Shown in pieces: positions 62,551 through 64,000 of a stretch of DNA of 64,000 nt. The position numbers were made by a program, and so were the translations under genes. The DNA comes from Fidelibacterota bacterium (lineage in GTDB: Bacteria > Fidelibacterota > UBA2242 > JAFGTP01): assembly GCA_016934035.1 (NCBI GenBank), contig JAFGTP010000002.1, positions 35,295 through 99,294 of the forward strand, read 5' to 3'. A model generated the notes under the pieces. The model ran no database searches and was not told where the DNA came from. It saw nothing but the letters and a program-made list of their open reading frames with translations. How positions within the stretch are numbered: position 1 is the first letter of the stretch; every line of letters begins with the position of its first letter.

Positions 62551-62620
62551 TTTCAGCCTTTTTTAATTTTTTAATAAATTGCACAATTATTTATTATTAA
62601 AGAAGTTTGTGAAATTTCGC

Positions 62621-62637
62621 AAGGGTTATTAACCCTT
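62621..62637. promoter_or_regulatory. 17-bp perfect inverted repeat in intI-attI spacer
   Basis: AAGGGTTA-T-TAACCCTT. Confidence 0.6.
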
Positions 62638-62649
62638 TACTTTTTTTTC

Positions 62650-62678
62650 TTGATATTCCTATATCTAAAGATTAAAAT
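62650..62678 (+). promoter_or_regulatory. Putative cassette promoter (Pc-like)
   Basis: TTGATA-N17-TAAAAT oriented toward cassettes. Confidence 0.4.
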
Positions 62679-62719
62679 AAAAGAATTAAGACAGAGGAAT
62701 AATAAATTGCAAAATCAGG

Positions 62720-62758
62720 CACAATATTGAAATTTTCGCAGGTTAATATAAGTTATAC
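62720..62758 (+). other. attI recombination region; crossover point between 62752 (G) and 62753 (T)
   Basis: AGTTATAC; GTTATAC is the exact reverse complement of the attC R-box GTATAAC at 63915. Confidence 0.75.
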
Positions 62759-62782
62759 ACAATAAAAGGTTGAAATAAAAAT

Positions 62783-63307
62783 TTGAATAGTACAACAATA
62801 GCAATAACTATAACAATAATTTTTTTTATTATCGTTGGATCAATAATAATTTCAATAATATCTTCAATCTTTAATATTAACAAATTTAGAAGAAATATTA
62901 AAAAAATTGGAACGTTGAAATATCAAGAATCTATAGATACTGAAGATAAAAAAGTCTCCAAATTATTTATTATTTCAATAGCTATTATAATATTTGGGAT
63001 GTTATTAATTATAATTTTTTCTGGGTATATTTTTAATTTTTATGTTCTAATCGGACTAATCTTTATAATTAATCTTTCGCTCATTTTTTATAGAATTAAA
63101 CTAATGAAAAAGAATAAAGGAATATATGAGAATGGAATTATTGTTTCAGATTCATTTTTCTTTTGGAAAGATTTAGTTTCATGGGAAATAAAAAACAAAA
63201 CATATAAAATAATCGCAAATACTGGATTTATCATTGATTATAAAATGAATGATAAAAATTTAACAATAGAAGAATTGCTTAAAAAAAATCTTCCAATTCA
63301 GAAATAA
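62783..63307 (+). CDS. Cassette-encoded membrane protein of unknown function, possible PH-like/DUF5673-like C-terminus (TTG start)
   Basis: Three-four hydrophobic helices then soluble domain KNKGIYENGIIVSDSFFFWKDLVSWEIKNKTYKI. Confidence 0.7.
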   Translation: MNSTTIAITITIIFFIIVGSIIISIISSIFNINKFRRNIKKIGTLKYQESIDTEDKKVSKLFIISIAIIIFGMLLIIIFSGYIFNFYVLIGLIFIINLSLIFYRIKLMKKNKGIYENGIIVSDSFFFWKDLVSWEIKNKTYKIIANTGFIIDYKMNDKNLTIEELLKKNLPIQK

Positions 63308-63329
63308 AGGAAGGTAGGATATAATAAAT

Positions 63330-63920
63330 ATGGATATGATAAATAACGGAGCTGAATATATTATAATGACATCTGCCAAAGTTTTATTAATGCTTTGGAA
63401 ACCACTATTAATACTTAATTTGGTTTTGTTCGTCATTTTCAAATCAATCAAATATTTGGGACTTGGTAATTGGTTATATATTGAATTTGATTCAGATTAT
63501 ATTAAAATGAAGAATTTAAAAAATGAAAAAGAATATCAATTTTCATCATATTTAGATTTTAATAAATTATCTAAAACAGAATTAAAAAATTTGAAAATAA
63601 AACATACTAATCAAGGTATTATTAATGGATTTAAACATAGTCGCTGTCCTATAGATGATATTGATATTGCTGGAAAAACTATTCAATACCATTCGCATAA
63701 AATTTTTCATGTAATGAAACCTTACATCATATTAAAACCAATTGGGTATGGTATGACTCAATTAGCAAAATTTGAAAAAGATCAATTATTAAAACTTGGA
63801 AAAGTATCTGGAATAGAAAGTTATATATATTTTGGAGAGAGTATTTCAAATATAAATGATATTGAAAAATCTGAACAATCAAATTGGTACAAAGAAAAAC
63901 CAAAAATAAAAGGTGTATAA
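63330..63920 (+). CDS. Cassette-encoded protein of unknown function with N-terminal hydrophobic segment
   Basis: 196 aa ORF, TM near N-terminus, ends at TAA inside attC R-box, 22 bp after previous ORF. Confidence 0.75.
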   Translation: MDMINNGAEYIIMTSAKVLLMLWKPLLILNLVLFVIFKSIKYLGLGNWLYIEFDSDYIKMKNLKNEKEYQFSSYLDFNKLSKTELKNLKIKHTNQGIINGFKHSRCPIDDIDIAGKTIQYHSHKIFHVMKPYIILKPIGYGMTQLAKFEKDQLLKLGKVSGIESYIYFGESISNINDIEKSEQSNWYKEKPKIKGV

Positions 63921-63974
63921 CGAATCTACTTTGCAACTGATCGCGTCAGCGTCAGCTGCAAGTAGGTGTTCGAG
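63915..63974 (+). other. attC recombination site of cassette 1
   Basis: GTATAAC ... CTACTTTGCAACTGA / TCAGCTGCAAGTAG imperfect stem with one extrahelical T and one A-C mismatch ... G|TTCGAG. Confidence 0.85.
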
Positions 63975-64000
63975 CAAGCACCTTTGTTTTTCACCAAATT

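Follow-up and report, generated by a model that had tools for sequence, protein, structure and literature searches.

Most of the proteins encoded by integron cassettes are orphans, cassettes that carry toxin-antitoxin genes stabilise integron arrays, and the attC site that makes a cassette mobile becomes complete only once the cassette has been excised as a circle and its own first bases supply the R' box. Integron cassettes usually carry a single ORF, two-ORF cassettes having also been observed; transmembrane products, and membrane and secreted proteins in general, are common among what they encode, and many cassettes are singletons whose benefit is uncertain (PMC12444791). Furthermore, work cited in that paper found 20% of the V. 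cholerae cassettes of unknown function to be anti-phage (cited in PMC12444791).

The closest described systems to the locus reported here are the sedentary chromosomal integrons, with the order intI-attI-cassette-attC. The locus has in common with these an integrase, a cassette in first position, AT-rich and foreign-looking ORFs and an attC whose bottom strand folds and which is closed by the start of the same cassette; it differs in that its cassette holds two ORFs where one is usual, and in that both of the encoded proteins are orphans. The locus lies in a window of 64,000 nucleotides (the whole stretch of DNA that was analysed), which comes from contig C24 in a draft genome of 4.2 Mb, the right edge of the window at position 64000 being also the end of the contig.

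Anatomy of the cassette

The integrase scores 421.5 bits against TIGR02249, for which the curated cut-off is 265, and neighbours ftsE/ftsX-like genes (Table 1). The cassette alongside starts with TTATACAC and its attC begins with GTGTATAAC, the R'' box, inside which the stop codon of ORF2 is found. The insertion boundary in the leader can be fixed because the cassette start pairs with R''. On its own the bottom strand of the attC has a folding energy of -13.5 kcal/mol (z = -3.7; none of 200 shuffles did as well), and when the two ends of the cassette are joined as they would be after excision, GTGTATAAC forms a 9-bp R''/R' pairing with G|TTATACAC and the fold becomes more stable, at -15.4 kcal/mol. 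Since ring closure gives both the pairing and the stabler fold, the 5' and 3' ends are those of one cassette, and since these ends match and the 22-bp gap between the two co-directional, plus-strand ORFs (63308-63329) cannot hold an attC, both ORFs would be mobilised as one unit; a second attC between them was considered and rejected, 22 bp being too short.

On its anatomy this is a genuine mobile integron cassette, proximal to attI, in which a single attC is predicted to excise and mobilise two genes. The original prediction had described one cassette with two ORFs in the first position of an integron, and its coordinates, ORF lengths and spacing are those of Table 1; the ring closure, the lack of room for an attC in the gap and the TIGR02249 integrase all bear that description out.

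Table 1. Features of the integron locus and attC copies elsewhere in the genome (positions in the window unless another contig is named)
Feature	Position	Strand	Basis
intI, integron integrase, 318 aa	61594..62550	-	TIGR02249; Pfam Phage_integrase and SAM-like N-terminal domain
attI/leader, 202 bp, AT-rich, from intI to first cassette; insertion point AAG|TTATAC	62551..62752	.	sequence
Candidate Pc, TTGATA-17-TAAAAT, pointing at the cassette	62650..62678	+	consensus scan alone, 10/12 matches
Two-ORF gene cassette, complete, 1,216 bp, 22.9% GC	62753..63968	+	sequence, ring-closure pairing, composition
ORF1, 174 aa, TTG start; 3 predicted TM helices and ~65-aa C-terminal domain	62783..63307	+	
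ORF2, 196 aa, ATG start; 1 predicted N-terminal TM helix and ~155-aa predicted cytosolic domain	63330..63920	+	
attC of the cassette, from R'' GTATAAC to crossover G (G|TT)	63915..63968	+	folding; related copies elsewhere in genome
Terminator-like hairpin with T-run, across cassette boundary	63964..63983	+	consensus scan
attC site	C26:38-114 (L025)		
attC site	C44:20305-20383 (L006)		
attC site	C61:294213-294270 (L007)		
attC, partial copy	C2:113-144 (L028)		
attC, partial copy	C49:325-359 (L029)		
attC, partial copy	C11:1-19 (L010)		

Whilst a candidate Pc can be picked out in the leader, the count of promoter-like sites in its region by the consensus scan is not above that in shuffles. Two stretches of the leader, GAAATTTCGCAAGGGTTATTAA (62612-62640) and GAAATTTTCGCAGGTTAATATAA (62726-62750), are alike and are possibly attI direct repeats. 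The same kind of scan found 2 terminator-like hairpins in the region against 0.3 expected, and the one formed by AGGTGTTCGAGCAAGCACCT and the T-run TTGTTTTT draws part of its sequence from the cassette end and part from the downstream flank. Downstream of the cassette the sequence reads G|TTCGAGCAAGC before departing from that which follows the other attC copies of the genome, close to the contig end 32 bp beyond the cassette; as three of those copies lead straight into chromosomal sequence, the first cassette of the array may, in this draft genome, also be its last.

Base composition and other cassettes of the genome

The two reading frames are longer than would be expected in such AT-rich DNA, 2,000 Markov shuffles of the cassette yielding no ORF above 160 aa (mean 55) against the real 196 and 174 aa, and ORF lengths like those of the real cassette were reached in 0 of the 2,000. 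The cassette has a GC content of 22.9% and the window one of 40.6%; among the other 1,216-bp stretches of the window that were tested (to ~62.7 kb) the lowest value is 30.8%. The BrnT/BrnA-like, DUF2130, Gp49/HTH and Fic cassettes of the same genome are at 25-30% GC and the chromosome adjoining them at 40-45%, so that AT-richness is a mark of the cassettes of this genome generally and not of the one in the window in particular. The AT-rich, foreign-looking composition that had been claimed for the cassette is thus real, but it is not peculiar to it.

The attC of the window belongs to a family with further sites at C26, C44 and C61, to which it is 92%, 92% and 84% identical respectively, and partial copies at C2, C49 and C11. 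At C26 a lipoprotein-like ORF and BrnT/BrnA-like toxin-antitoxin genes apparently make up one three-ORF cassette (L025:101-1482) standing behind the DUF2130 cassette, and here too the cassette start, GTTAGAGC, pairs with the attC R'' box, GCTCTAAT; the cassette at C44 holds the Gp49/HTH pair and that at C61 the Fic protein. As those at C26 and C44 are apparently multi-gene, such cassettes are not unique to the window, and the readable functions among them include toxin-antitoxin pairs. These two cassettes share with that of the window the attC family, the AT-rich composition and the presence of at least two genes ahead of one attC, whereas their toxin-antitoxin genes encode small soluble type II pairs of recognisable families and the ORFs of the window encode larger predicted membrane proteins of no family.

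All six of the other attC copies run on as G|TTCGAGCAAGCCAG, the same 15 bases, GTTCGAGCAAGCCAG, following each of these scattered sites and fragments, and at C44, C61 and C2 they pass straight into chromosomal sequence. Had the integrase inserted these sites secondarily, just TT would be common to them, as against the 15 bases that are shared. A repeat of ~220-260 bp is also present in exactly three copies in the genome (C44:21447-21708, C61:295177-295331 and C26:3081-3302; L142-L144), each of them on the upstream side of one cassette group (C44, C61 and C26). In translation, the end of this repeat is similar to a small protein whose gene lies immediately 3' of intI in a genome from the same family (L086:2398-2739). 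Integrons that decayed after the loss of intI may be what the scattered cassette groups represent.

The two proteins

In ORF1 hydropathy places hydrophobic segments at residues 1-35 and 56-108, of which the second could accommodate two helices; in ORF2 it places one at residues ~11-46. This upholds the expectation that both proteins are associated with the membrane. Thus ORF1 is read as three predicted TM helices followed by a C-terminal domain and ORF2 as a single predicted N-terminal TM helix with a domain of ~155 aa. There are positive charges next to the hydrophobic segments, and those that follow helix 1 and helix 3 of ORF1 suggest an N-out, C-in topology for that protein. Its TTG start has no clear, well-placed ribosome-binding site. 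Single-sequence structure models of the two proteins were of low confidence (pLDDT 64 for ORF1 and 48 for ORF2) and not usable.

The C-terminus of ORF1 resembles DUF5673 (PF18923), a family without an assigned function. The match, already suspected in the original prediction, is reproducible and spans positions 3-63 of the 66 in the model, yet it scores 20.1 bits with the whole protein and 21.8 bits (E 1.9e-4) with the C-terminus alone, below the gathering threshold of 26.7. Among controls, the best E value was 0.049 for 5 shuffled C-termini and 0.012, in the C-terminal half, for 9 shuffles of the whole protein; one whole-protein shuffle reached E 4.6e-4 against an unrelated family through its hydrophobic half. 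The resemblance is therefore suggestive only, and DUF5673 is found above its cut-off in 0 genomes of the phylum.

For the domain of ORF2 there is no credible family in Pfam, NCBIfam, PADLOC or PHROGs and no relative in the PDB. A Pfam match to SNaCT7, a NACHT-associated domain, at E 0.019 was dropped, a shuffle having matched SNaCT14 at E 0.048. The defence models of PADLOC-DB 2.0.0 gave no match to ORF2 and no credible one to ORF1, the best being CorA-like at E 0.07; no toxin or antitoxin domain of Pfam or NCBIfam was found in either protein, the same search detecting them in the C26 and C44 cassettes, and Rfam returned chance matches only. A toxin/immunity, anti-phage or envelope-modifying function had been put forward for the pair, and on this the family, defence, phage and structural libraries are of no help, holding no credible match for either protein.

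Nor were credible relatives of ORF1 or ORF2 found in ~245 genomes of the phylum, in plasmids, in phages or in viral contigs, and a scan of GTDB species genomes with ORF2 as query, sensitive to close relatives alone, gave no close relative. Such an absence from the phylum is consistent with a foreign origin of the cassette. Weak matches within the phylum, at E 1e-4 to 1e-2, were re-scored, and those that were read proved to be chance likenesses of hydrophobic segments; of two candidates rejected as relatives, one (L049) is flanked by apparent genes for a carboxyltransferase and a biotin-carrier protein, and the other (L032) is a match within an M23-peptidase-like protein.

At 35 related integron loci no relative of either protein is encoded on the cassette side of the integrase. 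A predicted hydrophobic helix is present in 13 of the 26 first ORFs beside related integrases, these being ORFs that start within ~700 bp, judged by simple hydropathy, with cassette boundaries not set and the cassette side assumed to be 5' of intI. With helices in 13 of 26, a membrane protein in first position can be regarded as ordinary in this group. The view that a two-ORF membrane cassette is exceptional was accordingly overstated, since both properties are known from cassettes elsewhere (PMC12444791), two others in this genome apparently hold several genes and half of these first ORFs have a predicted helix.

Possible function

The anatomy of the cassette is solid and ordinary for integrons, and both proteins are orphans in the libraries searched. 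The reading we prefer, at a probability of about 60%, is that of a first-slot cassette with two genes that are co-expressed and work together as a pair in the inner membrane, as an accessory module. ORF1 and ORF2 would probably be carried on one transcript from the integron leader and be translated in tandem, co-transcription being proposed because of the 22-bp spacing, the shared strand and the lack of a further attC between them. The proteins would most likely reside in the inner membrane, their C-terminal domains facing the cytosol, and act as a pair, the module itself presumably having been gained by horizontal transfer.

The probability given to this reading covers anatomy and pairing and not the task that the pair performs, and the likelihoods of the individual tasks overlap with it. 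The largest single share goes, tentatively, to an accessory membrane function outside defence, such as envelope upkeep, transport or sensing, and of no special kind; the frequency of membrane and secreted proteins among cassette products (PMC12444791) and of predicted helices in first ORFs beside related integrases both favour it, although nothing positive indicates a particular envelope or transport task. It seems rather doubtful that two unrelated genes have come to share a cassette by chance, or that the cassette is a transient one without a selected function. Such an account would fit the frequency of singletons of doubtful benefit among cassettes (PMC12444791) and the lack of homologues of either ORF, but both frames are intact in very AT-rich DNA, both proteins are predicted to be membrane-anchored and their genes are closely spaced.

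If one specific role has to be named, a membrane-associated stress or anti-phage response would be the single most plausible, at roughly one chance in four or five, an estimate owed mainly to the share of anti-phage functions reported among Vibrio cassettes of unknown function. An anti-phage or superinfection-exclusion module, in which one membrane protein senses infection or acts as the effector and its partner regulates or relays, is nevertheless unlikely in itself: the published share in V. cholerae is high (work cited in PMC12444791) and only in its general layout does the two-gene membrane architecture resemble that of membrane-bound defence pairs already known, whilst neither protein has a credible PADLOC match, the SNaCT7 match of ORF2 was nearly equalled by that of a shuffle and no homologue lies close to defence genes. 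Elsewhere in the genome the multi-gene cassettes hold toxin-antitoxin pairs, which might point to a toxin-immunity or toxin-antitoxin-like pair with one membrane protein harmful alone, a partner that neutralises it and a cassette stabilised in the array as a result. This we regard as quite improbable and somewhat less likely than defence, because the proteins are long, both of them about twice the length of the type II pairs seen in the genome, and unlike those pairs, with no match to a toxin or antitoxin family and no predicted DNA-binding domain in either. It is likewise improbable that ORF1 and ORF2 form a two-component membrane system not described before, with anti-phage action or toxin-immunity as its likeliest nature, and have spread as one cassette.

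Anti-phage systems have recently come to light elsewhere in cassettes without an assigned function. The present cassette, from a phylum that has been little studied, is well delimited, stands in the first slot of its integron and carries two genes for predicted membrane proteins, and so offers itself as a clean unit for functional testing. Were the pair to prove a defence or toxin-immunity system, the systems borne on cassettes would gain a new protein family; as matters stand, this is one more orphan cassette.
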